Origin: Cantharellus purpuraceus
Lineage: Eukaryota; Basidiomycota; Agaricomycetes; Cantharellales; Hydnaceae
NCBI GenBank assembly: GCA_025174535.1
Contig: JALBUN010000029.1
Coordinates: 62,001-126,000 of the forward strand
Length of the DNA: 64,000 nucleotides
Direction: 5' to 3'
Shown here one piece after another: positions 1,499 through 57,986 of the stretch. Every line of letters starts with the position of its first letter. Positions within the stretch are counted from its first letter, which is position 1. The position numbers and the translations under genes are program-made. Below the pieces are notes generated by a model. That model saw nothing but the letters and a program-made list of their open reading frames with translations, ran no database searches and was not told where the DNA came from.

Positions 1499-2060
1499 TG
1501 TTACGCACTAGGTCCAATTGGTGGTCAGAGATTGGGTTGGAGGTTTGGTTGGAGTCGGAGAAGGAGTCGGGTACGTCATGGGGGTCAGAACGGACTTGGC
1601 TTCAGCTTATGTGCTGCACCCTCACTAATACCGGTGTCTGAGATTTTGGAGACGGAGTACGACTTAGAGAGTTAGGATCAGACTTAGGAACTAGGTGTGA
1701 TTCGAACTGGGGAATGAAGTCCCCAGTCGGGCAACTTAAATACATATTTGAAATCTAATAATAATTACTCCAGGGATGGGTCTCCAAGGCCAATGGCCTT
1801 ACATGAGTATGTCCAAGTCTGACGGGGATGGATGTCCAGGTTCCTATGGTGCTGCTGATGCATCAATCGGAACTGGAGATGGATGGGTGGAATTGGCAGT
1901 TACAATCAGACAGGTAAATGGAGACGTGACAGTTTCCAAATGGAGTATAGATTTCATACATGCGGGGATCTGAGTGGATCAGACAGGGATCTGAGTGGAT
2001 CAGACAGGGATCTGAGTGGATCAGACAGGGATCTGGGTGTTAATGAATATAGTCATAACA
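1499..2060 (-). repeat. Gypsy 5' LTR, copy A (562 bp)
   Basis: The sequence starts TGTTAC and ends ATAACA, giving TG...CA ends with short inverted repeats. Closely related copies lie at 6492-7008 and 9026-9563. It lies just upstream (minus sense) of gag copy A. It is longer than its relatives because an internal 21-bp unit is repeated more often. Confidence 0.88.
1964..2037. repeat. 21-bp tandem repeat inside LTR A
   Basis: The unit gatctgagtggatcagacagg occurs three times in full and once in part. LTR copies B and C carry only about one full unit plus a partial one, so copy number varies between family members. Confidence 0.85.
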
Positions 2061-2966
2061 AAGATCCCCACCATGTCTCTCTTATGCCATTGGCGATCCT
2101 ATATTCCTTCACAATTCCATTGAACCATATACATTCCTTGGCATTTCACCTCTATATCGTAACATGGATAGAAGAGTCAAATGTGAGGTAGAATTTCAGT
2201 TGCCATCGCCAACCTATCCTCCCACTTCAATCCAACTCATGTCAGGCAAAGGGACCAAATACCCTTGGAACAGGATACCATATAGAGACAGATCACTAAG
2301 ACAATAAGGAGTATTTGTTGTGGATGCTGTCTAAAGTCCTCAAGTGACTCAGGGTCAATTTACCTTTGGAGCCAGAGGGAAGATGGTATTGGTGGATGTT
2401 TCTATTGTTCTTTTATATGACTCACCCCTGTTTCATCTTTTAATTCATTCATACACAACTTACTCATCCTTGTTCTATTTTTGGTTCTTTTATTACTCAT
2501 ACTTACAAAGATTACCCCTATCTGTCGCTTCATTTCTCCATGATTTCCCATTAGTAGTTCAACTTCACATGCTTTGTCAGCTGGCTTGATCAGCATTTCT
2601 TGCATCATATCGCATCATTTGCTCCTCATATTGTGTCATTGTGCCCTGGGATTTGTATATAAAAGGGCACTAGTTTTCGCCTTTGGGATAAATCAACAAG
2701 TTTTCAGCCAATGCTCTATAGTCAAAGTCCACGCTCTAAGTCTACACTCCACACTCTACATCACAATCCATCAGCTCTACACTGAGGTAAAGCACCTTGG
2801 TTCAACAATCAGATTTCCCTCCGTCACCCAGAGGTCACATCTCCTGAAACCAGCTTTCATGTACCTCCCAACCAGGCTCTCCATTGTCATCCAGTCACAG
2901 AGCATGATCAACCATCTGGACCGTCCTTTTTGCTCCCATCCTCATCCAACCACAGAGCACTATTAC
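2061..2966 (+). repeat. Inverted partial copy of the 4760-6173 element
   Basis: From 'agatccccaccatgtctctc' to 'cacagagcactat' this is the reverse complement, with scattered substitutions, of roughly 4882-5820. It includes the TATA-like 'tatataaaagggc' (2655-2670) of that element's LTR. It abuts LTR A directly and is cut at about 2966 by the hairpin sequences, so it is a truncated insertion. Confidence 0.8.
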
Positions 2967-2968
2967 AC

Positions 2969-3101
2969 CTCAGTGAATAGAAGAAGATTCACTGAGGTGA
3001 GCATGAGTTTCTTGTGCATGTTATAGTTTATTGACTGTAGCATAGTTCTTGTCTAGGTATTACTTAATGTTAACCACTTAGTGAATCTTCTATTCACTGA
3101 G
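2969..3101. repeat. Pair of related short hairpins
   Basis: At 2969-2996 CTCAGTGAAT and ATTCACTGAG face each other across 8 bases. At 3079-3101 a similar hairpin (TTAGTGAAT ... ATTCACTGA) occurs with the loop in the opposite orientation. Together they resemble the ends of a small inverted-repeat (MITE-like) element of about 130 bp. No coding potential was seen. Confidence 0.5.
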
Positions 3102-3136
3102 TTCTTGTCTAGCACCATTTCCTTATTATTACCTTC

Positions 3137-3446
3137 CTGTATATTGTCTGCATTGACCATTAAAATGGATTGTAACCAAAGTATAAATGTTAAATTGTTT
3201 CTGGTGTTGTGCTGCAGTAGGATTTGATATTCTTCTCAGCTGTTCATTCATGGAATTGTGGTGATTTAGAGTTGTGTTTTGGAACCTGCAAAATTATGGT
3301 GTTAGGGCAAACTCTAAATCACCACAATTCCATGAATGAACAGCTGAGAAGAATATCAAACCCTGCTGCAGCACAACTCCAGAAACAATTTAACATTTGT
3401 ACTTTGGTTACAATCCCTTGTATTGGTCAATGCAGAGTATATGCAG
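3137..3446. repeat. Foldback element, about 310 bp
   Basis: The two halves are reverse complements around a 36-bp loop (3274-3309). The inner 51 bp (3223-3273 and 3310-3360) pair perfectly; the outer ~85 bp pair with scattered mismatches. The transcript would form a long hairpin. This is the structure of a foldback/MITE-type element. No target duplication was identified. Confidence 0.85.
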
Positions 3447-3728
3447 AAAAGTAATACATTTCTTAGCAGCAAGAAATGAATAAGACTTCCAGAGTCTAGA
3501 GTTCACAGACGCTTAGGGGTCCAGATATTCCAAAATGAGGGGAATGCACTTAGAGGCTAAAGGAAGTAGGTGGATGAATCCAACCGTCCAACCAGTGACA
3601 CTCTGAAGTGGGTAACAGTGATATGTGAAGTAGTCTAGCAACTGCTTCACACGAGTTCAAGATTCTAATGCTCTGCAAAGGCAGTACACACTAGTAACTT
3701 AAACAAGAGCACTAATGGCAGGACTATA
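3447..3728. other. Unassigned sequence between foldback and gypsy copy B
   Basis: No open frame or family was recognised. It ends abruptly at 3729, where the protease coding sequence of gypsy copy B starts in mid-motif, so it is probably part of another insertion that truncated copy B. Confidence 0.5.
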
Positions 3729-4759
3729 GAACCAGAGTCAATTAATGCTTGGATGGCGGTATCGGGAATGGAGTCAGAGTAGACGAGGAGGGTAAGGGAG
3801 TCAGAGTGGGAAAGAGTGGATGCGTTCAGGTGGACCTTGTTTGTTGTATGGGAGTACCAATGCAGCCCTCAGCCCGTACGGAGGCTATAGGACTGCTTAC
3901 TATTTTTTTGGGTCCATCGCTTTTGCATCGGACTTGTCCGTCGTGGCGTTGGCGGCACGGCCCTTTGCCTTTGCTGTGGATGAGGTTGCCTTGTTGCAAT
4001 CCTTGGCTTGGTGGCCAGGCTTTCTGCAGAACAGACAGAGGTTGTTGTCCATGCGGTGCTGGTGTTCCTGCTGGGTAAGTTTTCCATCCTTCCCCAGCTT
4101 GGTGGAGAGGTCCAGAGTACTTGTGAGCTCTGGAGTTATTGCTGGTGCTGGAATTGTTCTGACCGGAACCGGAAGTGGCAGCATTACCAGTGTTTGACTT
4201 CTGGCCTGAGTTGGCGGTGGCCCTCTTATCAGACCCCTTGTTGGACTTTGGGGTCTTGTCCGATGATTTGTCCAATTTGTTGTTGGCTGAATTTTCACAG
4301 GAGACCTTGGATTGACATTCCCAATAACGGGCGTTGATGGATTGGGCGAGCTTGTGAAGGGTAACCAAAGTATCCAGCTTACCGACATGTGATATCTCGT
4401 CCTTGATGCTGGATGGGAGTCCAACGTAAAATTGGCATCAGAGTGCGGTGTCGCCCCATTGGACTTTCAGAGCTAGCTGCTGGAAACTCACAATGTATTT
4501 TGCAATTTTGTGATTTTCCTTCATCCAAAGTCGATCAAGTTTGTTCTCAACATTGGCCTCGGGATTGTAAGGACCAAAATTGGTCCAAAGTTCAGAGATG
4601 AAGTCGGAGTAGTCATCTGACCATATCAGGTCATCGGAGTCGTCCATGAGCGCTGGCTCGAAGTAGTGTGGTGCGGTGCCCTTGAGATAGGACATGGCGA
4701 AGGTAACCTTCACCCGATCGGATGTGAATGCGTCGGGGTGGTCATGGAAATTCAACCAG
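3729..4759 (-). pseudogene. Ty3/gypsy gag, copy B, C-terminal part
   Basis: This is a second Gag copy, about as decayed as copy A. In minus sense it covers the capsid core from the NFHDHPD motif, then an in-frame TGA near 4424, the Ser/Lys-rich linker, a two-base loss near 4115, and an intact CCHC knuckle CLFCRKPGHQAKDC (about 4020-4062). The gag stop is at 3900-3902. A short protease remnant (ALIDSGS) ends at 3729. The N-terminal part of the same gag is at 6179-6427, separated by the inserted element 4760-6173. Confidence 0.85.
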
Positions 4760-6173
4760 TGTCGGTTCGCTTAAGGAATAGATCCTATAAGCCTGCGCGC
4801 AACGGTCCTAGCAAACAGACGGTGTGTAACGCAGTTGTTCAGCACTCCAAAGATCAATCAGGGCGAGGGGTACGTAACAGGGAAGTGGGATAGTGCTCTG
4901 TGGTTGGATGAGGATGGGAGCAAAAGGTCGGTCCCGATGGCTGATCGTGCTCTGTGACTGGATGACAATGCGGAGCCCGGTTGGGAGGTACGCGAAAGCT
5001 GGTTTCAGGAGAATCAACCTCTCGGTGGTGGAGGGAAATCTGATCGTTGAACCAAGGTGTTTTACCTCAGTGTAGAGATGATGGATTGTGATGTAGAGCG
5101 TAGAGCGTAGACTTAGAGCGTGGACTTTGACTTTAGAGCGTTGGCTGAAAACTTGTTGATTGATTCCAAAGGCGAAAACTAGCGCCCTTTTATATACAAA
5201 TCCCCAGGGCACTACGACACAATATGAGGAGCAAATGATGCGATATGATGCAAGAAATGCTGATCAAGCCAGCTGACAAAGCGTGTGAAGTTGAACTACT
5301 AAAGGGGAAATCATGGAGAAATGAAACGACAGATAGGGGTAATCTTTGTAAGAATAGGGGGTGATGAGTAATAAAAGAACCAAAAATAGAACAAGGATGA
5401 GTAAGTTGTGTATGAATGAATTAAAAGATGAAACAGGGGTGAGTCATATAAAAGAACAATAGAAACGTCCACCAATACCATCTTCCCTACGGCTCCTAAG
5501 GTTAATTGACCCTGAGTCACATGAGGACTTCAGTCAGCATCCACAACAAATACTCCTTATTGTCTTAGTGATCCGTCTCCATATGGTATCCCGCTCCAAG
5601 AGTATTTGGTCCCTTTGCCTGACACGATGTAACCTGAGTCGGATTGAAGTGGGAGGATAGGTCGGCAATGGCAACTGAAATTCTACCTCACGTTCGACTC
5701 TTCTATCCGTGTTACGATATAGAGGTGAAATGTCGAGGAATGTATATGGTTCAACGGAATTGTGAAAGAATATGGGATCGCCAATGGCATAAGAGAGACA
5801 TGGTGGGGATCTTGGACGTTGAAAGAGTTTTGGAAGTATTTTGACACGTGGAGGTGGCTTAACATGCCCGTGGAGCTCGGCGTATTTTTGATAGTCCTCT
5901 GTGTCCAGAGACCAGTGTGACGTATTATTAGAAGTGATGTTGGAGAGGGGAATAGAATGGGAAGCCATGTGAATGATGATGAAAGGATTGGTGTGAATAG
6001 AAGGCTGATAATGATCGATGGCGATGAAACACGAGTGACGATCGATGGCTAGAATTAGAGACTGAGGTGGAGAGGGAGTTGCGGCGCTATTTAAAAGTTG
6101 ATACGAAAAGACGCTGGCGGAGTTGGACTGTCAGAGTGGTTCGATATGCGTCCTCGATGCGTCCTGGCTCGTC
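4760..6173 (-). mobile_element. 1.4-kb LTR-type insertion in gypsy gag B
   Basis: It interrupts gag copy B exactly; joining the flanks recreates the gag sequence seen in copy A. The flanks are ACCAG (4755-4759) and ACCGG (6174-6178), a 5-bp target duplication with one change. The left part (4760-5338) is an LTR also present as a solo copy at 14642-15186 and inverted at 2061-2966. It has a TATA-like TATATAAAAGG in minus sense near 5190-5200. The right part holds another TATA-like box (6088-6097) and a 144-aa ORF. No reverse transcriptase is present, so it is a non-autonomous or deleted element. Confidence 0.65.
5534..5968 (-). CDS. 144-aa ORF of the 1.4-kb insertion
   Basis: ATG-started ORF beginning MASHSIPLSNITSNN, about 120 bp downstream of the TATA-like TTTAAATAG. 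It is basic and Arg-rich in the second half. No domain was recognised. It may be the N-terminus of a gag-like gene that was deleted downstream. The inverted partial copy at 2061-2966 preserves only the second half. It is probably not a host gene. Confidence 0.35.
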   Translation of the reverse strand: MASHSIPLSNITSNNTSHWSLDTEDYQKYAELHGHVKPPPRVKILPKLFQRPRSPPCLSYAIGDPIFFHNSVEPYTFLDISPLYRNTDRRVEREVEFQLPLPTYPPTSIRLRLHRVRQRDQILLERDTIWRRITKTIRSICCGC

Positions 6174-9728: not shown

Positions 9729-9734
9729 TATTAA

Positions 9735-10300
9735 GACGCTTATTCAGAAATACAACAAATACGTATGTACAACCTATTTTCCTCAAATTTTATACAATAC
9801 ACTTCAATTCAAACTTATTTTCATATTTCAACATGATTCTCAAATTTTACACAATATACTAGATTAAAACATATTTTGATATTTTGGCATAATTCTCAAA
9901 AATAATTCTTTTTTTCCTGATTTAGTGGTGGCAACTCTCTTGAAGGAACATCCAAATATCATTGATTCTTTCTTATACAATACTTATAACATAATTTGAA
10001 CTATCTTTAATCCCCACCTGGTATTTGTATATCTAAATACCCTATATAATACCAATTATATTAATACATACATTCCTATTATATCCATGTAAATAATTAT
10101 GTTCATCTCAACCAAATGTCTTATCTTTAAAAGTTTATTAAAATATAGAATATATGTTTATATTTATGAAAATTTCACACATCCGAAATCTTTTAAGATA
10201 TCCAAATTGTAACTCCCTGGCTTTATGTATCATTGAAATTCTGATGTATATCTCATATACATCAGAATATTGTATACTGACATGATTCCGAACAAGCGTC
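9735..10300. repeat. 566-bp terminal direct repeat, left
   Basis: I compared it base by base with 16969-17534 and found no difference. Its own ends are inverted (GACGCTTATTC / GAACAAGCGTC). The inner side is followed by TAG (10301-10303). It is non-coding and very AT-rich. Near its right end is a perfect hairpin with 14-bp arms and a 3-base loop (10238-10268). Confidence 0.93.
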
Positions 10301-10379
10301 TAGGGAGGTCATTTTAAAAACAAAAATCATCACCTTATATCATCAACAAGCTTCTTTCTCCATAGATTTAGACATGCCA

Positions 10380-10877
10380 TTATGAATTCTTATCTTCATT
10401 GGTATGTCTGGACACTGTCCAACACAGCAAAGCCAATAGTATACCAATACTAGTTATGTAGATCATGTGCACTGTACGGCCAAGATATAGTTTCTGCCTA
10501 TTTATATCTGGGCCTGGCTGTCTAACAAACGCCTGATTCACATGTGTGGTTATAATGTGTGCATATCCAGAGGTTGGATCAGAACCACTTACAAATCTGT
10601 TGGTTTTATTCAGAAAACCTGCAAATTCTGCTACAAAAATAGGATCACTTTCATTATAGCCTATTTTATCAGGTTGTAGACCAAGAAATACATATTTGAT
10701 ATGAGGATACTTTGAAAGATGGAACACTTCACCTTCAGCATATGAACGGTCCAGATACTGCCCAAAGGGGTACCAGTCACACGTTGCACAATTAGCTAGC
10801 CGGTGTGGATTGCTGTGAAAAGGCTTTTGGTAAAACTGTTGATTGAGACGCTGTTTCAGTAATGGATCAGTCTCCAT
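10380..10877 (-). CDS. 165-aa protein with C-terminal membrane anchor
   Basis: ATG at 10877. The first ~135 residues are soluble and contain a small Cys motif (NCATCDWYPFGQYLD) and several aromatic positions. Residues about 138-156 (MIYITSIGILLALLCWTV) form one hydrophobic segment followed by a short polar tail, so a tail-anchored or type I-like topology is likely. No family was recognised. A splice-acceptor-like 'ttttatacttatag' lies just before the ATG, so an upstream exon is possible. It lies next to the left repeat and downstream of the transposase on the same strand. Role in the element is unknown. Confidence 0.55.
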   Translation of the reverse strand: METDPLLKQRLNQQFYQKPFHSNPHRLANCATCDWYPFGQYLDRSYAEGEVFHLSKYPHIKYVFLGLQPDKIGYNESDPIFVAEFAGFLNKTNRFVSGSDPTSGYAHIITTHVNQAFVRQPGPDINRQKLYLGRTVHMIYITSIGILLALLCWTVSRHTNEDKNS

Positions 10878-10989
10878 AGATACCTATAAGTATAAAACAT
10901 ACAAATATTCAATTTTATTCTGGGAAAAAAATTTACAGTTGAATGTAGCATAGGTATACAATAATACTATTACTATTGTCTTTCCAATA

Positions 10990-11090
10990 CTATTTAATAC
11001 ATTCTGTAGATTTAAAGCTTGATGTTGCTTCCCAAGTTTTATCTGCATAACATTTCCATTTAACTAAATATTCTACGTAATTTCCTTTTT
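10990..11090 (-). pseudogene. Frameshifted chromodomain tail of the transposase
   Basis: One frame over from the transposase stop, the minus strand reads EYLVKWKCYADKTWE and ends at a TAG at 10990-10992. This is the centre of a chromodomain. Its N-terminal strand (NEVEQIIRQRKRK) is the last in-frame part of the transposase ORF. The two halves join if one A is removed from the five-A run at 11086-11090. Of the methyl-lysine cage, the Trp (VKW) and the following aromatic (KCY) are present; the first aromatic appears to be Asn. Confidence 0.75.
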
Positions 11091-12409
11091 CTTTGCCTTA
11101 TTATTTGTTCTACTTCATTTTCAGTCTCATAATGCATCTCCACATCATACTCACATCTTTCTAATAGTCGTTGTTGAGATAGAGTCATCTTGTCAACATC
11201 TTCTGCTCTTTCCAGTAATGATCTGGGTGGCTCAATATCTGGGTCCTCTTCCTCAGGGTAATCAAAATATTGTTCACACCATTTTTCATGATAAGGGGAT
11301 GGTTTGATCTTACGTAGTTCTACAAATTTCTTAATATTCCATAATAGACATGCTACCTTTAATTCCAGATTAAAGACAGCAGGATTTGTAGTTCTAATAG
11401 ATCTCTTATTATCAAATTTTTCAAACAATATTGCAAACCCTCCAAAGAATGCTTCTACTGTTGAACTAAAGGCACCAAACTTCTTATTAAAAATCTTTTC
11501 TTCAGGTTTAAGTTCAACATTTTTTGGCTTCCTAAAAGGATAAAAGAAGTTCTTAGGCTTTAATATACTTGCCTTTACTACTTCTTGAATAGCAGATGGA
11601 TAAGCTCCATCAAAGCCTATCTGATCATTCTTATCTATTTTATTCCATACAGCCATCTCTACAAACATTTTTGCATCAGGATTTAGTTTACATGCCAATG
11701 AAGGTGAGGTGAATAGAACCATTTGATTAATGTCAATGCATACTTGAGTACTAAATCCTGCCTTTTTAAATTTATGTGAGTACCCCTCTTCAGATGTCGA
11801 TCCAATCAAAATTCCTCTTGTATCATGACCATCAAGAAGTAATGTCACTGATTCCATTTTTGGAGGATTCTTTATAAGAGCTGATAATATCCTTATTATT
11901 ATATTTGAGAACATTGTACGCAGTGAATCAGTAACTTGTTTATCTAGATCAAAGTTAAGATGATGCAGACGACCATAAAATTCCTTATGAACATCATAAA
12001 AGCTACTTGATGGCATGAAATTTCCTATTTCTTCATAAGTAGGACCTTTGAGTAGATGATATAGTACTAACAAGCCTTTTTCTATCTCTCTATAAGGTGT
12101 AGAATGTTCTTCAACTGAAAACAATACCACAAGAAAGAAAAATACTGGTATTGGTCCAAGCTTGTTATATACTACTTTTTTTACATCATCCATGTCATTC
12201 ATATCTTTTAGTTTTGTTCTATGATATTTTTTGTGTTCTAAGACAGGCCACTTTGTGTATAGAAAATTCCAATGATTGTCCATCAACTTATTATATGCTC
12301 TGTCCCTTTGATCATTCCACATTTTAAGTTGCTGAAGCTCTTTTTCTTCTTTATCTTTTTGCTCTTTCTCTTTTTGCTCCTTTGTGTGTTTTTGCTGGTC
12401 TGAGGGCAT
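11060..12409 (-). CDS. PIF/Harbinger-like DDE_Tnp_4 transposase
   Basis: 449 aa. The N-terminus (1-30) is Lys/Glu/Gln-rich. Residues about 110-145 resemble the helix-turn-helix that precedes DDE_Tnp_4 domains. The catalytic core shows D193 (LLLDGHDTRG), the basic SHKFKKAGF and QVCIDIN strand, D267 (GFDGAYPSA, matching the family's DSGYP) and E319 (STVEAFFGGF, matching VERAFG). It would cut and join the element's ends. The last residues are the start of a chromodomain that is cut off by a frameshift, so the natural protein may be about 30 residues longer. From memory, similar LLLDGHD-type proteins are abundant in Rhizophagus; this was not checked. It is divergent from the 216-aa gene across an 87-bp gap. 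Confidence 0.85.
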   Translation of the reverse strand: MPSDQQKHTKEQKEKEQKDKEEKELQQLKMWNDQRDRAYNKLMDNHWNFLYTKWPVLEHKKYHRTKLKDMNDMDDVKKVVYNKLGPIPVFFFLVVLFSVEEHSTPYREIEKGLLVLYHLLKGPTYEEIGNFMPSSSFYDVHKEFYGRLHHLNFDLDKQVTDSLRTMFSNIIIRILSALIKNPPKMESVTLLLDGHDTRGILIGSTSEEGYSHKFKKAGFSTQVCIDINQMVLFTSPSLACKLNPDAKMFVEMAVWNKIDKNDQIGFDGAYPSAIQEVVKASILKPKNFFYPFRKPKNVELKPEEKIFNKKFGAFSSTVEAFFGGFAILFEKFDNKRSIRTTNPAVFNLELKVACLLWNIKKFVELRKIKPSPYHEKWCEQYFDYPEEEDPDIEPPRSLLERAEDVDKMTLSQQRLLERCEYDVEMHYETENEVEQIIRQRKRKLRRIFS

Positions 12410-12496
12410 TTTGACTAAGATAATATTATATTACAGTAAAACAAAAATATGTTCATAATTGAATTTTAAATTAAATAATATTTATTCTATGAAGCT

Positions 12497-13147
12497 ATGT
12501 TGTCTGTCTCTAAGCAAGTTGTTCGTAAAATATCTACTGTCTTTGTTAAAAAAGAACCAGAGGATGATGAAAATCCTTTGTATATAGACTCTGACACCAT
12601 CTACATAAAATTCAGATTAAGAAATCCCCCAAAGGACTTCTTTCCAGCTGGATCGGTTTCTCAGGAAAGAGATAAAACACCAGAAGCACTGTACAATAAG
12701 ATGATTGAAAAGGGCAATGAAATAAGTAATTCAACCTGGATTCAACAAAATCATTGTATGTCAAGTCTGCAAACCATGCAACAGGATAATCTGCCTAGTT
12801 GTAATATTTCTATTGCTAGAGAAACTGGCAAGAAGTGTGATATTTCTATTGCTGGGGAAACTTGTAAGAACTGTGATGTGTATAACAATTTGGTTACATC
12901 AATGGTTGTTGCATTGAAACAACAGCAGAGAGTTTTCAAGAAAAGTAAAATCACAATCTATGGTATGATCATAACTAAGGATGGTAGGTTAAAATTATAT
13001 GAAACCACCAATAACAATCAGGGTGTTTCAATTGTTGTATATCCTTCCTCTGGATACAGCATAGAAGCTCAGTTTGAAGAGTGTTCTAATGCTATTGACA
13101 TTATATTCCAAAGTATAAGAAATCAGATGTTCAAAGAATCCTCATAA
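12497..13147 (+). CDS. 216-aa element protein, unknown function
   Basis: ATG at 12497, divergent from the transposase, so the 87-bp gap probably serves as a bidirectional promoter. The N-terminus carries FVKKEPEDDE, which fits a SUMO acceptor consensus. Residues about 103-128 hold a tandem duplication (NISIARETGKKC / DISIAGETCKNC) visible at DNA level around 12800-12875. The C-terminal ~80 residues look globular (KITIYGMIITKDGRLKLYE). No family was recognised. In known Harbinger elements the second protein is a Myb/SANT DNA binder, but no such signature is visible here. Confidence 0.6.
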   Translation: MLSVSKQVVRKISTVFVKKEPEDDENPLYIDSDTIYIKFRLRNPPKDFFPAGSVSQERDKTPEALYNKMIEKGNEISNSTWIQQNHCMSSLQTMQQDNLPSCNISIARETGKKCDISIAGETCKNCDVYNNLVTSMVVALKQQQRVFKKSKITIYGMIITKDGRLKLYETTNNNQGVSIVVYPSSGYSIEAQFEECSNAIDIIFQSIRNQMFKESS

Positions 13148-13165
13148 GGAGTTGATTTAAAAGTC

Positions 13166-13390
13166 CTAGTTTCTACACTCACAACATTTTTCATCTATTT
13201 TCACTTTGATAATTTCAAGATTTGAACTTTTGTTCACACAACAATAAGTACCATTAGTATCATGATGAGTATTTTTTGAATGTTCAGAGCTCTTAGGACA
13301 TTTAATATCCTTACAATCTGTAACTACAGATGTAGTAGTTATATGATTGCACTTCCAAGTAATTTGAATTTTTTCACTATCACCACACAT
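13166..13390 (-). CDS. 74-aa cysteine-rich small protein
   Basis: ATG at 13390. Nine cysteines including CC pairs near residues 50-51 and 69-70 and a final CxC arrangement (EKCCECRN). There is no clear signal peptide. The Cys/His content suggests metal or disulfide structure; no family was recognised. It is the most downstream of four short minus-strand ORFs separated by only 38-77 bp. Confidence 0.4.
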   Translation of the reverse strand: MCGDSEKIQITWKCNHITTTSVVTDCKDIKCPKSSEHSKNTHHDTNGTYCCVNKSSNLEIIKVKIDEKCCECRN

Positions 13391-13441
13391 GCCTTCATTT
13401 GAGTGAATAAAAATATTGCATATTCACTTATCTGATTTATC

Positions 13442-13621
13442 TTATACTTGTTGTAGTGCACGTAGTGGTAGCTGAATCTCATTGTCATCATAAGTAACAG
13501 TTATTAGCAAAGTGTCATCTGACAAAGTGCCAGTTACTAATGTAACAATACCTGTCACTGTCATTTGTGTTCTTGCATTGATAAATGATACCTTATCACC
13601 AATCTCGGGTATATTCAACAT
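13442..13621 (-). CDS. 59-aa small protein, possible SH3-like barrel
   Basis: ATG at 13621, stop at 13442-13444. The sequence opens MLNIPEIGDKVSFINAR and alternates strand-like hydrophobic runs with turns (TGIVTLVTG, LLITVTYDD, IQLPLRALQQV). The GDKV start and evenly spaced beta strands are typical of small SH3/KOW-like barrels. The fold assignment is only a guess. It lies between two other tiny ORFs on the same strand. Confidence 0.45.
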   Translation of the reverse strand: MLNIPEIGDKVSFINARTQMTVTGIVTLVTGTLSDDTLLITVTYDDNEIQLPLRALQQV

Positions 13622-13659
13622 GGTGTCTCTGGTTATTATATATTAATTTTCAAAACTCA

Positions 13660-13905
13660 TTATTTCTCATCTAATTTCCTATCAAGTATATCTACAAACT
13701 TCTTAAATGCTTCAAAACACTGTAGAACATTCTTTCTACTATTAATATGTTTCATACCTGTTACTGTTACAGGGAAACAACACCTTACATTTGTTATCAC
13801 TTCTGAAAACAACCCTTCTGTGATAGCATGATCAAGCTCTCTTGTAACAGTTACTAGGTAAAACTGGGGGACTTTTCTCGATGTTTGAATGCAAGGTATT
13901 GTCAT
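13660..13905 (-). CDS. 81-aa small element protein
   Basis: ATG at 13905. Begins MTIPCIQTSRKVPQFYLVTVTRELDHAIT, with a CC pair at mid-length and an amphipathic C-terminal helix (ECFEAFKKFVDILDRK-like). No family was recognised. It is the third of four tiny minus-strand ORFs. They could also be exons of one gene; I did not find a convincing GT-AG set joining them. Confidence 0.4.
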   Translation of the reverse strand: MTIPCIQTSRKVPQFYLVTVTRELDHAITEGLFSEVITNVRCCFPVTVTGMKHINSRKNVLQCFEAFKKFVDILDRKLDEK

Positions 13906-13982
13906 TTCCTCTAAAGCACTTTTTCCCTTATTCTTCCTTATCTAAGTATGTAAAAATTTTCTTGAAGACTCCTTTAAACATT

Positions 13983-14150
13983 TCACATCATCTTTTTGTA
14001 ATCAAAACTGAGGATCTCATCATCAGTATCTAAAGTAATATCTCTAAAATCTGTCTCAAAAAACTGTTTAGTCCATTGTGTGTCAACCATTATACCATAA
14101 TCCCAAAGATCATGAGAACTCCAATCATTGCACTTCTTATCTTTACCCAT
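13983..14150 (-). CDS. 55-aa acidic small protein
   Basis: ATG at 14150, stop 13983-13985. Begins MGKDKKCNDWSSHDLWDYG and is rich in Asp and Trp, ending DYKKMM. A further 17-codon ATG ORF begins immediately after its stop (tgaaatg). It is the most upstream of the cluster of tiny minus-strand ORFs. Its reality is inferred from consistent strand, compact spacing and protein-like composition. Confidence 0.35.
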   Translation of the reverse strand: MGKDKKCNDWSSHDLWDYGIMVDTQWTKQFFETDFRDITLDTDDEILSFDYKKMM

Positions 14151-14641
14151 GATGTCAATAAAGAAGGATATATAAAATTTATTTACTAGATATGTGCATA
14201 GTTCTGAAGAGCAGAATGTCCATATTTTTATCTAATATTTATAAATTGAATTATATATATTTTCTAAAGTTGTCAATAGCCAGATGCATGCACTTGTTCT
14301 GAATACTACAACAAAGTCCCATACAGAATTCCCTGTCCTTTCATCTATCATTCTTCTACCAGTTCCTTGTTTCCTATCTTGCCAGTCTTTCATTCCAAAT
14401 TCTTTGCTGCATAGCTAAATAGGTGTACCAGCCGATTGGATATTATCATATCATGGTAATGACGTCGGATGGAAGGTCACCTTGTCAGGAGCAGTTTGAT
14501 CACATTATCAAAGGACAGCCTTTGGCTGTGAGGGTTGATAATGATGCACTTACTGAGCAGACAGTAGGTGAGACTTTGCAGCGGCATGGTGTACCAGATA
14601 ATTGAATCGTTGTCCTTGAGCAGCCCGATGATGTCACTCGG
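14151..14641. other. Element interior without a recognised gene
   Basis: 14151-14420 is AT-rich like the rest of the element. From about 14425 the composition becomes richer in G and C, and a plus-strand frame (14453-14605, starting MVMTSDGRSPCQEQF) is open but unrecognised. This segment abuts the solo LTR and may be part of the sequence that came with it. Confidence 0.4.
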
Positions 14642-15186
14642 TGTCGGTTCGCTTATGGAATAGATCCTATAAGCCTGCGTGCAATGGTCCTAGCAAGCAG
14701 ACGGTGTGTAACGCAGTTGTTCAGCACTCCAAAGATCAATCAGGGCGAGGGGTACGTAACAGTGAAGTGGGATAGTGCTCTGTGGTTGGATGAGGATGGG
14801 AGCAAAAGGTCGGTCCCGATGGCTGATCGTGCTCTGTGACTGGATGACAATGCGGAGCCTGGTTGGGAGGTACGCGAAAGCTGGTTTCAGGAGAAGCAAC
14901 CTCTCGGTGGCGGAGGGAAATCTGATCGTTGAACCAAGGTGTTTTACCTCAGTGTAGAGATGATGGATTGTGATGTAGAGTGTAGACTTAGAGCGTTGGC
15001 TGAAAACTTGTTTTTTGATTCCAAAGGCAAAAACTAGCGCTCTTTTATATACAAATTCCCAGGGCACAACGACACAATATGAGGAGCAAATGATGCAAGA
15101 AATGCTGATCAAGCCAGCTGACTAAGCTTGTGAAGTTGAGCTACTAAAGGGGAAATCATGGAGAAATGAAACGACAGATAGGGACA
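14642..15186 (-). repeat. Solo LTR inside the 7.8-kb element
   Basis: About 545 bp, TGTCGG ... GGGACA. It matches 4760-5338 (LTR of the element in gypsy gag B) with a few dozen differences, including loss of a short repeated 'agcgtag' stretch. The minus sense has the same TATA-like box. I found no matching target duplication; flanking gatgatgtc and gacatcatt are inverted to each other. The insertion shows the 7.8-kb element is not brand new at this site, or that it carried the LTR with it. Confidence 0.75.
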
Positions 15187-15198
15187 TCATTAGACTGC

Positions 15199-16428
15199 TC
15201 ATGGACAGCCATTCACCCCAAGGTGACCTTGTATCCTACGTCTTCGGAGGCTTACATTACTGGGTTCTACCTCTACATCTTTTTCTTGAACTATGAATTT
15301 GAGATTGATCAGAGTCTGAATCAGATTGATCAGAGTCTGAATCAGATTGATCAGAGTCTGAATCAGATTGATCAGAGTCTGAATCAGATTGATCAGAGTC
15401 TGAATCAGATTGATCAGAGTCTGAATCAGATCGTTCCTTAGACCTTTTTTCTTGATGCCTTGAACTAGGAGTTTGAGATCGTTCATTAGACCTTTTTCTT
15501 GATGCCTTAAACCTTGAGTCATTCCTTGCTTCCATGTTTGAAAATTAATCCTATTACCATCTACGCCATATGATGACATTTCATTCTTTCTAGTATATAT
15601 TGTAGATAGTTTTCTAGGCTCACCATTTATGAATAATTCCATTCTATTTAGTCTACAAGACTGATCTGAGTCTATAAGTATATAGTCTACACCTCTTTTC
15701 TCTATCTTAAATGTCACCTTTCTGGTACCATTTTCCTGTAACCTTGTTACCTCCTGTTCTTGTTTTCCAGCCCAGTGATTCATATCAAATTTCCAGTCAA
15801 CAATCTCAGATATTATTGCTTTATATTTATCACCCTGTTTCTGAAGTTTATTAATGTCTGTTCCAAGTTCCACTACAGTATCATCTGTTTCTACAATCCA
15901 CTCATGCACTTCAGATTTCCATTCCACAATGTCTGATATTGTTGCAATACATCTATTAACCTGTTTCTGAAGTTTATGAATATCTGTTCTATAGTCCAAT
16001 ATAAGATTCTCTGCATTATGTGTATTGACCTGTTGATGAATATCTGTTCCATGGTCTGATATTGTGGCAACACACCTATTAACCTGTCTCTGAAGTTTAT
16101 GAATATCTGTTCCAAATCCTGATACAATATCATTCATTTCACTCATCCATTCATCTAAATTCTCTTTCCTGTCTGTCAAAGTAGTTATAATTGTATTTTT
16201 TTCCTCAACCTGTTTCTTAAGCACCTGAATTTCCTGACTCTGGGAATTAACCTGTTGTTCAAGCATAGTGATCTGCCTATCCTTTTCACTCATCCAAGAC
16301 TTGACATTTATAAGATCAGATATTAATTCATCTTTTACTTCCATTTGACTTGCCATAGCTTTTATCAGTGCATCATTGTCACTTATCCAGCCTTTGATTG
16401 CTTTTATATCTTCAAAGATTTGTGGCAT
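15199..16428 (-). CDS. Coiled-coil protein with SD-repeat tail
   Basis: ATG at 16428. About 270 residues are a long coiled coil with a recurring heptad-rich block (KLQRQVNRCxATISD-like, at least four degenerate repeats, about residues 100-215). Then comes a globular-looking stretch (GVDYILIDSDQSCRLNRMEL). Downstream the original frame reads IQTLINL repeats; a good donor (GGTGAGCC, near 15630) and an acceptor near 15533 would instead splice into a frame reading RS-rich sequence plus SDSDSDQ repeats, ending at 15257. The spliced version looks more protein-like. Such proteins can be structural or nuclear scaffolds; role unknown. Confidence 0.6.
   Translation of the reverse strand: MPQIFEDIKAIKGWISDNDALIKAMASQMEVKDELISDLINVKSWMSEKDRQITMLEQQVNSQSQEIQVLKKQVEEKNTIITTLTDRKENLDEWMSEMNDIVSGFGTDIHKLQRQVNRCVATISDHGTDIHQQVNTHNAENLILDYRTDIHKLQKQVNRCIATISDIVEWKSEVHEWIVETDDTVVELGTDINKLQKQGDKYKAIISEIVDWKFDMNHWAGKQEQEVTRLQENGTRKVTFKIEKRGVDYILIDSDQSCRLNRMELFINGEPRKLSTIYTRKNEMSSYGVDGNRINFQTWKQGMTQGLRHQEKGLMNDLKLLVQGIKKKGLRNDLIQTLINLIQTLINLIQTLINLIQTLINLIQTLINLIQTLINLKFIVQEKDVEVEPSNVSLRRRRIQGHLGVNGCP
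15303..15430. repeat. 21-bp tandem repeat, six copies
   Basis: Six near-perfect units of gatcagagtctgaatcagatt. Because 21 is a multiple of three, all frames stay open; one minus-strand frame encodes SDSDSDQ heptads. It lies in the 3' part of the coiled-coil gene. Confidence 0.95.
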
Positions 16429-16575
16429 TTTCAAATCCCTCTCTGCTTATAAAACAGAAATGAAAAAACATAATAATCATTTTTTTCTGAACATTTGATA
16501 TTTTGTATAGGCAGTAGATATATACATCTTGCTTTCTTAATAAAATGATTATTATGTTTTTATGTTATAAGCATT

Positions 16576-16902
16576 ATGAAGATGCTCTCTTTTATGCTTC
16601 AATGCAAGATAGAGTTTGATAGAAGAGTTAATGATTGGTATATATCTCGGATAGGATCCCTCCATGATTTGTTTCTGAGGTAAGTTCCTTTATAAATATC
16701 AAGGTTCCAATCACTGACTTTATACAGATGTACTGATGGCACACTTCTGGAACAGAAATTAACAGAGTTATATACTAGTATGGAGCAGGATCATTATTTT
16801 CCACCACTTTGGATGGAAAATCTGATGGTATTGCACCCTAAAGTACGAGGGATAGTCATACAGTCTCATGTTAGAACAAGATTATCTACCACTATGCCCT
16901 AA
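16576..16902 (+). CDS. 92-aa spliced small gene at the right end of the element
   Basis: Exon 1 is 16576-16679, intron 16680-16727 (48 nt, GTAAGT ... TTATACAG with an internal CTGAC branch-like motif), exon 2 16728-16902. The product starts MKMLSFMLQCKIEFDRR and contains an acidic-aromatic centre (EQDHYFPPLWMENLM). No family was recognised. The clean consensus intron argues that genes in this element use the host spliceosome, and that the other short ORFs might also be exons. Confidence 0.55.
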
Positions 16903-16968
16903 CTAAGTTACTTTGTTTTAAAAATAGCTTCACTGCATTAAAGGTGTTTGTTTCCAAGACTTTCCTAA

Positions 16969-17534
16969 GACGCTTATTCAGAAATACAACAAATACGTAT
17001 GTACAACCTATTTTCCTCAAATTTTATACAATACACTTCAATTCAAACTTATTTTCATATTTCAACATGATTCTCAAATTTTACACAATATACTAGATTA
17101 AAACATATTTTGATATTTTGGCATAATTCTCAAAAATAATTCTTTTTTTCCTGATTTAGTGGTGGCAACTCTCTTGAAGGAACATCCAAATATCATTGAT
17201 TCTTTCTTATACAATACTTATAACATAATTTGAACTATCTTTAATCCCCACCTGGTATTTGTATATCTAAATACCCTATATAATACCAATTATATTAATA
17301 CATACATTCCTATTATATCCATGTAAATAATTATGTTCATCTCAACCAAATGTCTTATCTTTAAAAGTTTATTAAAATATAGAATATATGTTTATATTTA
17401 TGAAAATTTCACACATCCGAAATCTTTTAAGATATCCAAATTGTAACTCCCTGGCTTTATGTATCATTGAAATTCTGATGTATATCTCATATACATCAGA
17501 ATATTGTATACTGACATGATTCCGAACAAGCGTC
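16969..17534. repeat. 566-bp terminal direct repeat, right
   Basis: Same length, orientation and sequence as 9735-10300. It is flanked by TAA on both sides (16966-16968 and 17535-17537). The 14-bp-arm hairpin recurs at 17472-17502. Confidence 0.93.
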
Positions 17535-17537
17535 TAA

Positions 17538-17697: not shown

Positions 17698-18606
17698 TTG
17701 TCGCGTCACTTCGCAACAGGAAAAATAGGCGCTGCGGCCACCACGTTATCGGAAGGAAACTACCGTCAATTCTGCCTTGGAAGATCATCCAAAAACACAG
17801 TCTTTGAAGGAGAACTAGTTGGTATATTATTGGCTATCCAAATCGCATCCAAGCAAAGTACAGCCCGCACAATCCTCATAGCTCTGGACGGCCAGGCCGC
17901 TATTACTGCACTTCTCAATAACACCTCTCAGCCGGCGCAATACCTCATCAATGCCATACACGCCAACATCCATTGCCTCAAATCCAGACGCGGTCACCTA
18001 TTCATTCACTTCAAATGGGTTCCAGGACACAAAGCAGCGATCGGCAACGAAAAGGCGGACACACTTGCCAAGGCAGCAGCAGAAGGAATCTGCTCCCCCA
18101 AACCAGATCTTCCATGCCTGCTACACCGAAAACTACCAGCCAGCGTCGCCACTCTCAAAGCCCACAGGAAAAGTAGCGTAAAAATGAGATGGAAAGTGCT
18201 CTGGCAACAATCGCCAAGATACTCAAAGCTAAGCAGAATCGACCCAACCCTGCCTAGCCGCAAGACAACACGCTACCTCCTAGGCCTACCCCGTCGCGCG
18301 ACAAGTATCCTAATACAGCTGCGCACTGGCCATGTTGGACTCAATTGCTTCCTCAAGCGCATCAAGGCCGTAGACTCTGCACTATGCACCCACTGCAAAG
18401 TACCAGAGACAGTTGCACATTTCCTAAATCACTGCAAGAGATACATAGAGCAACGCAAGAAGCTACGCCAGAACACCGGAAAAGCTAGTTACTCAACCGC
18501 ACAACTCCTTGGAAATACAGAGGTCATCAGCCATACTCTCGACTACATAGGAAACACAGGCAGATTCGAACACTACAAAGATGTAGCCCAGAACAAAGAC
18601 ACCTAA
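17698..18606 (+). pseudogene. LINE (non-LTR) retrotransposon RNase H tail, 5'-truncated
   Basis: About 300 codons open from 17698 (a TTG; no ATG start). It carries the RNase H core: Glu in KNTVFEGELVGILLA, Asp in LIALDGQAAI and the C-terminal Asp in GNEKADTLAK. The first catalytic Asp block is missing at the truncated left edge. It ends with a CCHC-like motif (CTHCKVPETVAHFLNHC), common at the C-terminus of Tad/I-type LINE polyproteins. 5' truncation is the usual fate of LINE copies. Codon use is GC-rich, unlike the AT-rich element to the left. Confidence 0.85.
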
Positions 18607-55400: not shown

Positions 55401-57986
55401 TGAAGCTACTCAAGGAACTCTCCGTTCTGAACCTGTCATTCAACCAGATTCAGGAGATTCCACCATTCTGGCTGCAGTCCATTTCGCAGCTAGAAAAGCT
55501 GTACCTTAGTGGCAACAAGTTGACAAGCTTACCATCGGAGAATCTGTATCGCTTAACTAAATTAACGGTTTTATTCCTCAATGGCAACAAACTCCAGACG
55601 CTGCCCGCAGAGCTAGGCAAGGTGAAAAGTCTGGCTGTCCTCGATGTCGGTAGCAACGTTCTCAAGTACAACGTCAACAACTGGGAGTTTGACTGGAATT
55701 GGTATGAGCACTTTTCTCTCTCCCTTTTCGTAGATGCTCATTGACGTGATGTGAAGGAATTTCAATCCGCAGCTGCGCTACCTGAACCTGTCTGGAAATA
55801 AGCGACTTGCGATCCGAGCTGACAACTCGCATTCCAAGAAATACACGAACAACGATACCACAACCGAGCAGCAGATGTTCTTGCAGAAGCAGCTTGCCGA
55901 GTTTACTGGCCTCAGGGATCTCCGTGTGCTCGGCCTTATGGAAGTGACGACGCCCTTATTGTCCTCAATTCCGGACGAGAACGAGAACCGTCGTGTCCGG
56001 ACGTCTCCTCCAGAAGTCAACGGGATGGCCTACGGCATTGCAGACACGCTGGGCGAGGTGGAACACGTTGGCATGTTCGACCTCGTGCTCCCGAGTTTCC
56101 GTTCGAGGGATGACGAGTGTTTATTCGGGATGTTTGGTCACTTGCGACCTCTTCCTAATAACAACAAGGTGTCGAAGTTCCTACATGAGAACTTCCTTGG
56201 TGTCTTCACGAAGACCTTGAACGTGTTGAAGAAGGACGGATCTGAAGGAGTAGCCGATGCGATGCGAAGAGCCTTCCTAGCCCTGAACAAGAATCTGTTC
56301 GACAACCTAACAACTAACAATAACTCGCGGAAGTTGTCTACTGGCAGTAATGCGACTGGAACGTTACTGGAAGTCTCCAGTTTGAAGGCTGGCGCAGAGG
56401 CCGTTGTCGTCTACATGGTAGGCAAGACCATGTATGTGGCAAACGCTGGGAACGCACTGGCAGTTGTCTCCCGACAAGGGTCAGCAAAGCTCGTCTCAAT
56501 GAACCACGACCCATTCGATCGTGCGGAGACGGCCAGGATTCGCGCTGCAGAGGGATGGGTGTCCCCCAAAGGCCTGGTCAACGACGAAGTTGGCGTTTCA
56601 CGGTCGTTTGGCTATTATCATGTCATGCCAGCTGTCAATCCTCAGCCGCATGTGACAGAGTGGCTCCTCTCAGAGCGCGACGAATTCGTGATCATTGGCA
56701 ATCGGGGTTTATGGGATTACGTCTCTTACCAGACGGCCGTGGACATTGCTCGCACGCACAGGGAGGACCCTATGATTGCTGCACAGAAACTTCGTGATTT
56801 CGCGATGAGCTATGGCGCTGACGGAAGTACGATGATCATGGTCGTTTCTGTTGCAGATCTCTTCAAAGCATCGGGCGCCCGACTCCGGCAGCCCGTCCTT
56901 GACGCAGAAGCCATCAAGCGCAAGAAGGATGAGGTGGCTGATCGTGTCATCGCCAGGCTTGAGCCAGAGGTTGAACCCCCCAAGGGATACGTGGCCCTCG
57001 TGTTTACAGATATTCGTAACTCGACGTTCTTGTGGGACAAGAATGCAGGTATGGCTACTGCCATGAAGCTTCACAATAATCTCCTACGCAGACTCCTTCG
57101 CTACACTGGTGGCTATGAGGTGAAGACCGAAGGAGACGCGTTCATGGTGTCGTTTTCCAATGTCCTGGCTGCGTTGCACTGGAGCTTTATGGTCCAAGTG
57201 CAACTTCTTCATGAGCCCTGGCCGTTGGAAATCTTGGAATGCGAGGATGGTAAAGAGATCAGAGATCCGCAGGGTCGACTGGTTGCCAGGGGCCTTTCGG
57301 TTCGCATGGGCATCCACTGCGGGTCACCGTATTGTGAGCGAGATCCAGTTACGCGGCGAATGGACTACCTGGGGCCGATGGTGAACCGTGCTGCGCGGAT
57401 CAACCAGTCTGCCGCCGGTGGTCAAATAATGTGCAGCGGGGACGTTGTGCGAGAAATTAAAAGCCGCGTTCTGGATGATGATCCAGAGAAACCCGTCGAT
57501 CCAGAATTAGCACCCACGATTGATGCCATTCGCTTGAAAGGAATAGTCATCAAGGAGGTAGGAGAGAAGCGGATGAAAGGATTGGAAGTTCCGGAAATTC
57601 TGTCCTTGGTGTACCCAAACGACCTGGCAGGTCGTCTCGAGCTCAAAGAAGATTCATGTGTGGATGGCAAGTGTTCCGAGGACGGGTCTCGCGTGCAGTT
57701 CAGTGAGGGTCAGATGATGCAGCTGGCTCATCTTTGCCTCCGCCTTGAGACCCTCTCTTCCAAGCGCGTTTTCCGGCCTTTGTCCGAACGCAAGTCTGGA
57801 AGCACGGACGCGGATCCCACGGAGGTCATGATGTATGGCGATCCGGATCTTCTCGTGCCATGTTTGAAAAATCGAACAGACAAAGAGCTTACCTATCTCT
57901 TGGATTCATTATCTGTACGGATCGACAATGCTCTGTCAACCCTACAACTTCGACGGACAATGGAATCTGCTATCATTCCTACATAA
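52493..57986 (+). CDS. Adenylate cyclase (Cyr1/Uac1/Cac1 type)
   Basis: Five exons give 1761 aa: 52493-53608, 53661-53805, 53851-54023, 54080-55701, 55757-57986. Order: disordered N-terminus with polyproline (1-370), Ras-association domain (about 372-480, IRIHRSDGAYHVVSCPLDTTV), about 20 leucine-rich repeats (490-1045), PP2C-like domain (about 1105-1385, MFGHLRPLPNNNKVSKFLHEN), and the class III cyclase domain (about 1425-1580) with metal Asp in FTDIRNSTFLW and KTEGDAFMVSF, ending after VNRAARINQSAAGGQIMCSGD. It makes cAMP under Ras control for the PKA pathway. Motifs look intact. Compared with many fungal relatives the disordered N-terminus is short. Confidence 0.96.

Follow-up and report, generated by a model that had tools for sequence, protein, structure and literature searches.

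Can a DNA transposon be built, and persist in a genome, in the manner of a long terminal repeat (LTR) element? The question is raised by a unit of about 7.8 kb in a 64,000-nucleotide stretch of Cantharellus purpuraceus (positions 62001-126000 of contig C29, JALBUN010000029.1; hereafter the window), in which a transposase gene lies between two long direct repeats. We consider it likely that the unit is a DNA transposon of PIF/Harbinger-like type that is bounded by long terminal direct repeats, in the order repeat-interior-repeat. The left repeat (9735..10300, forward strand) and the right repeat (16969..17534, forward strand) are the same at 566 of 566 bases, as an earlier reading made from the letters alone (the sequence-only reading) had reported, and the identical block reaches into the flanks to 571 bp (9732-10302 and 16966-17536). 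Each repeat also has the inverted ends noted in that reading, which in the left repeat lie at 9735-9749 and 10286-10300; GACGCTTATTCAGAA and GACGCTTGTTCGGAA (other strand) match at 13 of 15 positions, and the termini read GACGC..GCGTC, that is, GA..TC. Between the repeats lies the interior (10301..16968, forward strand), with constant ends that begin with TAGGGAGGTC and finish with AGACTTTCCTAA. The whole element is flanked by TAA on both sides (9732..9734 and 17535..17537, no strand), assigned as target-site duplications from the flank letters and the typing of repeat pairs described below. The claim that each repeat has TWA-type flanks holds for these outer positions; on the inner side the left repeat is followed by TAG, and both this TAG and the TAA preceding the right repeat belong to the constant interior and are not target duplications.

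The same arrangement was found repeatedly when the organism's own genome (40,153,731 bases in 50 contigs, a basidiomycete genome of about 40 Mb) was scanned. A basidiomycete host, probably close to the Cantharellales, is also indicated by the adenylate cyclase ORF at 55875-57986 of the window, which gave 533 matches at E<=1e-50; among the 120 listed, those with an organism name belong to Ceratobasidium sp. 370 and Tulasnella sp. 418 (54% identity each), and the best one has 93% identity. The 5' end of the repeat gave 533 matches (up to 3 mismatches in 28 bp) and the 3' end 490 (up to 3 mismatches in 29 bp). Since the reversed-pattern controls for both ends gave no match, against 533 for the 5' end, the repeat occurs far beyond chance. 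The repeat-interior (left) junction was found 58 times and the interior-repeat (right) junction 61 times, with constant sequence, and 55 of the 58 left junctions were followed within 15 kb by a right junction of the same orientation, at a median spacing of 6.6 kb (6,657 in the window unit). The unpaired junctions, 3 left and 7 right, include several near contig ends. A search with the transposase gave 102 stretches in 61 places, with 12 full length and free of stops. Interior starts adjoin a matching repeat junction in 57 of 58 cases and interior ends in 59 of 60, and loss of a single repeat was not seen among them. The two exceptions still lie next to a repeat, one beside a diverged repeat (L141) and the other beside the repeat at C45:2948875, and at C24:124737 the left repeat is truncated along with the interior start. 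At two further divergent places, C24:166162 and C35:13044, the left junction survives, with 2 mismatches in the first and 3 in the second. Beyond the attached repeats, about 420 stand alone or are fragmentary (533 5' ends minus the 58 and 61 attached repeats, four array repeats being counted twice), or 375 when calculated from the 490 3' ends.

In the fetched loci, 126 full-length repeats were typed as left (43), right (37), shared (3) or solo (43), with 14 partial repeats excluded. The outer 3 bp were common to both sides in 30 of 36 typed pairs, compared with a mean of 6.5 and a maximum of 14 in shuffles. Three of the six remaining pairs are in arrays (C38, C45) and three are not (C1:464203, C3:1362356 and C17:49346). 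The typed solo repeats, chosen for an exact 5' end among the matches listed, have distinct flanks in 41 of 43 cases, and 38 of these 41 have a duplication measuring exactly 3 bp, against a mean of 5.6 and a maximum of 13 in shuffles. Target duplications were found only on the outside, never at inner junctions. When flanks were joined through a single copy of the duplication, 44 of 71 queries matched an uninterrupted paralogous site, that is, an empty site; the 71 include two duplicate sites (C16/C22) and one query that is the C45 array, and 3 of the 44 alignments are gapped, once at the junction (C1:2875101). The 7.8-kb unit is inserted as a whole with a 3-bp duplication, and solo repeats carry a like duplication. 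Over 68 duplications the target consensus is C-TWA-G (C in 44, T in 50, A or T in 61, A in 52 and G in 49), which is close to the known PIF target site. Many targets are inside other repeats, and at least three lie inside copies of this element (C15:536710, C23:3500919 and C24:168267). Chance or an assembly artefact was dismissed in view of the recurrence of the structure on many contigs, the duplications and the empty sites, and the high-copy element is confirmed as real.

The search with repeat and transposase, which the sequence-only reading had itself put forward as a check, has thus returned many full two-repeat copies with one outer 3-bp duplication together with many solos, and the idea that a solo repeat and a full element share their ends, like solo LTRs, is borne out. 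The other explanation offered there was a composite of two copies resembling miniature inverted-repeat transposable elements (MITEs) that were mobilised together. Taken as two independent insertions that by chance flank a transposase gene, such a composite would fit the complete inverted ends on each repeat and the abundance of solos with 3-bp duplications of their own, but it is contradicted by the constant inner junctions, the restriction of duplications to the outside, the shared orientation of the two repeats, the likeness of the ends within an element and the finding (below) that left and right repeats are not separate lineages. We regard it as highly improbable: as a chance event at each site it is refuted, and it survives only as the remote origin of the family.

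The two repeats of an element differ by a mean of 2.2 bases (median 1; 11 of 36 pairs identical; maximum 13, in the C38 array), whereas repeats of different elements differ by 10.9 (left-right), 10.8 (left-left) and 10.9 bases (right-right). Since the left-right distance between elements equals the left-left and right-right distances, left and right repeats are not two lineages. Furthermore, since the difference is 2.2 bases within elements and about 11 between them, regardless of which ends are set side by side, the ends of one element are homogenised, as in LTR elements. The lowest mean in 20,000 permuted pairings was 7.6, and a repeat's own partner was its nearest or tied relative in 28 of 36 pairs, and strictly the nearest in 21. 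It is most likely that gene conversion between the two repeats keeps them identical. Alternatively, each transposition might build both repeats anew from a single one, with no RNA involved. A circle (or concatemer) of one repeat and the interior could, for instance, be nicked at the inverted ends of the repeat on opposite strands, and fill-in would then copy the repeat to each end prior to integration. The near-identity of repeats within an element, the equal distances between left and right repeats of different elements and the existence of arrays are all consistent with such regeneration. In addition, the three non-array pairs lacking an outer duplication differ by 7, 5 and 1 bases against a mean of 1.7 in the 30 duplicated pairs (p=0.05), and among 27 closely similar copies the interior differs by 0.40% over its first 3.5 kb, compared with 2.1% for left repeats between elements. 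However, the latter contrast is not decisive, as the two halves of the interior are themselves uncorrelated (r=0.12, p=0.25; repeat against interior, weakly, r=0.30, p=0.03). No intermediate was observed, and frequent recombination between copies can by itself explain the homogenisation. We hold regeneration to be possible but rather unlikely. If true, the "LTRs" would be a 566-bp relative of the target-site duplication, and the LTR way of life would have been reached independently of retroelements and of KolobokP, the animal transposons compared below.

Since violations of the four-gamete rule abound in the repeats, in the interior and between the two (repeat-repeat 200/325, interior-interior 213/528, repeat-interior 462/858), recombination or conversion between copies is evidently frequent, and it may itself be a homogenising force. 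The notion that interiors jump into resident repeats, which the contrast between repeat and interior divergence had suggested, was rejected on the same failed control of interior halves and the violations found everywhere, and is no more than a hint. Arrays were found on C38, C44 and C45, where adjacent units share a repeat (four shared repeats, three of them typed). For the C45 array, a single TTA duplication bounds the entire run of units, and a paralogous site lacking the insertion was found. Arrays of this kind would arise from the same recombination that yields solos. In KolobokP-4N1 of a clam, 46 copies with one repeat lost are given against 90 monomers (PMC9587614). Since such single-repeat loss is unseen here, we favour recombination between the two repeats of one element, with loss of the interior, as the probable main source of solos, although some solos may also transpose alone, owning both ends.

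Do the encoded proteins point to a DNA transposon? The sequence-only reading had listed a DDE_Tnp_4 transposase and about eight other open reading frames (ORFs); the DDE_Tnp_4-like transposase stands, while the count was generous, as the interior holds four candidate genes (of 165, 449, 216 and 411 amino acids) plus shorter ORFs. The transposase (11060..12409, reverse strand, 449 amino acids) has residues D193, D226, D262, D267 and E319, which all 12 aligned proteins share. Three relatives, P0001, P0002 and P0036, match DDE_Tnp_4 at 34.5-40.0 bits, above the Pfam cut-off (3 of 3 scanned). A chromodomain is present, by precomputed annotation, in 41 of 60 relatives listed, and those named by organism among them are from Apophysomyces, Rhizomucor, Mortierella, Actinomortierella and Thamnidium. 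When a 12-protein profile was compared with solved structures, HP1-type chromodomains were matched, and no transposase appeared among the best 60 of 65 matches. In the element itself a chromodomain-like segment lies at 10993..11097 (reverse strand), open over 54 codons in 28 of 30 copies (L031-L060). In the divergent copy L141 the transposase is 62% identical over residues 1-412, with the chromodomain and catalytic domain again in different frames; its left repeat has 76% identity and is broken up by other sequence, and no right repeat was visible in the sequence fetched.

Several points weigh against the favoured explanation. The typed loci are a non-random sample, consisting of the best matches to the window repeat, the best transposase matches, the repeats paired with listed transposases and the solos with an exact 5' end. 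Exactly TWA is found in only 30 of the 68 duplications. The window transposase itself scores E=0.001 and 19.2 bits against DDE_Tnp_4, under the Pfam cut-off of 24.8. In all 30 copies examined (L031-L060) the reading frame of the chromodomain-like segment differs from that of the DDE domain, as would follow from a fixed frameshift, an intron or a programmed shift. Lastly, the best fold matches of the structure model (best mean predicted local distance difference test score 75.3, other four models 71.9 to 44.5) are retroviral integrases, all weak and none at E<=0.001. Since its Pfam score is below the cut-off and its chromodomain is offset in frame, the activity of the window's own transposase copy appears doubtful. 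The Harbinger-like label given in the sequence-only reading is nevertheless supported by the 3-bp C-TWA-G sites and the DDE_Tnp_4 domain of the relatives, subject to the score of the window protein and the share of exact TWA targets.

LTR retrotransposons, especially chromoviruses, have paired identical repeats, solos, outer duplications and a chromodomain behind a DDE enzyme, and each of these features recurs here, the last in the relatives. It is conceivable, then, that the element is a non-autonomous LTR retrotransposon that captured a transposase and obtains its reverse transcriptase from elsewhere, as LTR elements have the same grammar of paired identical repeats, solos and an outer duplication. 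However, no reverse transcriptase domain was found in the six interior ORFs scanned, the repeats end in inverted GACGC..GCGTC rather than TG..CA, the target sites are of the 3-bp C-TWA-G type, and in the 40 bases leading up to the right repeat no purine run is longer than AAAGG (no search was made for a primer-binding site). We find this explanation very hard to credit.

PIF/Harbinger elements use a TWA target resembling C-TTA-G and have a second, Myb/SANT-like gene. The present element is like them in the DDE_Tnp_4 domain of its relatives, the 3-bp duplication, the C-TWA-G target and the short inverted ends, and differs in its long direct repeats, solos, arrays and length of about 7.8 kb. Pfam recognised no Myb/SANT-like second protein in the six interior ORFs, a scan that a split gene might escape. 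In a PIF/Harbinger-like transposon of this kind, the DDE transposase would recognise the inverted ends on each repeat and use the outermost pair, and the chromodomain may direct new insertions towards silenced repeats.

The term "new architecture" used in the sequence-only reading is too strong, since KolobokP elements of animals, in the Kolobok superfamily, have this layout (Kojima and Bao 2022; PMC9587614). Like the present element, KolobokP has the order repeat-interior-repeat, with repeats (450 or 660 bp, against 566 here) that each bear short inverted ends; it also occurs as solos and as (repeat-interior)n arrays with outer duplications, and it carries a DDE transposase in the interior. 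Since GA..TC also satisfies the RR..YY rule for Kolobok termini, the separation from Kolobok should not be drawn too firmly. According to the same source, KolobokP differs in its C/DxxH motif, zinc fingers and His-Me nuclease, and in the single-repeat loss of KolobokP-4N1. Here there is a DDE_Tnp_4-like transposase with the D262-E319 interval free of C/DxxH in all 12 proteins aligned (by letters, the motif occurs between D226 and E319 in 3 of 12, P0002, P0007 and P0036, and not in the window protein), a chromodomain in most relatives, no His-Me finger nuclease recognised by Pfam in the six ORFs, and a fungal host. Bacterial composite transposons and IS26-type units, as treated in PMC9587614, are similar in that two mobile repeats bound a unit and single repeats can stand alone, and differ in that the transposase is here in the interior and not in the repeats. 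We class the element as PIF/Harbinger-like in kind and KolobokP-like in architecture; the layout is known, and the transposase type, kingdom and chromodomain are different. Among the papers listed by full-text searches, which did not extend to Repbase or subscription journals, we found neither a Harbinger-type element with long terminal direct repeats nor a paper on this chromodomain transposase family.

Annotation takes paired long direct repeats as the mark of a retrotransposon, and here they are borne by a high-copy DNA transposon whose solo repeats could pass for solo LTRs or MITEs. The element joins KolobokP as a second example, from another kingdom and with a different type of transposase, which suggests that such a layout arose repeatedly and that a homing nuclease may be dispensable for it. 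With many near-identical copies in one fungus, it becomes testable how a DNA transposon keeps two direct repeats identical.

The remaining candidate genes are an orphan ORF of 165 amino acids (10380..10877, reverse strand; 5 candidates in a search, none at E<=0.001), an ORF of 216 amino acids and unknown family (12497..13147, forward strand) and, from the ORF scan, a coiled-coil ORF of 411 amino acids starting at TTG (15199..16434, reverse strand). The ratio of nonsynonymous to synonymous substitution rates between the window and L141 is 0.37 for the 165-residue ORF, 0.52 for the 216-residue ORF and 0.86 for the transposase. In NCBIfam the 411-residue ORF gave only coiled-coil matches far under the cut-off and the other four proteins gave none. 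A search of viral contigs for relatives gave 7 pattern matches and no relative, and a transfer RNA scan of the window found none.

Two solos on C16 (L122/L123) and two on C22 (L133/L134) have identical repeats and flanks, reflecting either the duplication of a segment or the presence of both haplotypes in the assembly. Elements with unlike repeats occupy the same site of related repeats at C1:2372858, C36:28313 and C38:18673, and also at C7:300490 and C9:546157, which points to either a target that was used more than once or an old insertion whose ends were replaced. Beside the divergent copy, L141 contains a large inverted repeat (1646-4384, arms up to 555 nt, 98%) that includes the target sites of several solos. 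Near the 3' end of each window repeat is a 31-nt near-perfect palindrome (10238-10268 and 17472-17502). A GC-richer stretch of the interior (14461-15242) is edged by a 24-nt inverted repeat (88%), and since the window junction spacing of 6,657 is near the median, it is probably carried by the family; within it, 14641-15183 is 90% similar to 4759-5338, another repeat elsewhere in the window. Just downstream of the element, an ORF at 17698-18606 with an RNase H domain (PF00075, E=5e-8) perhaps derives from a non-LTR retroelement.

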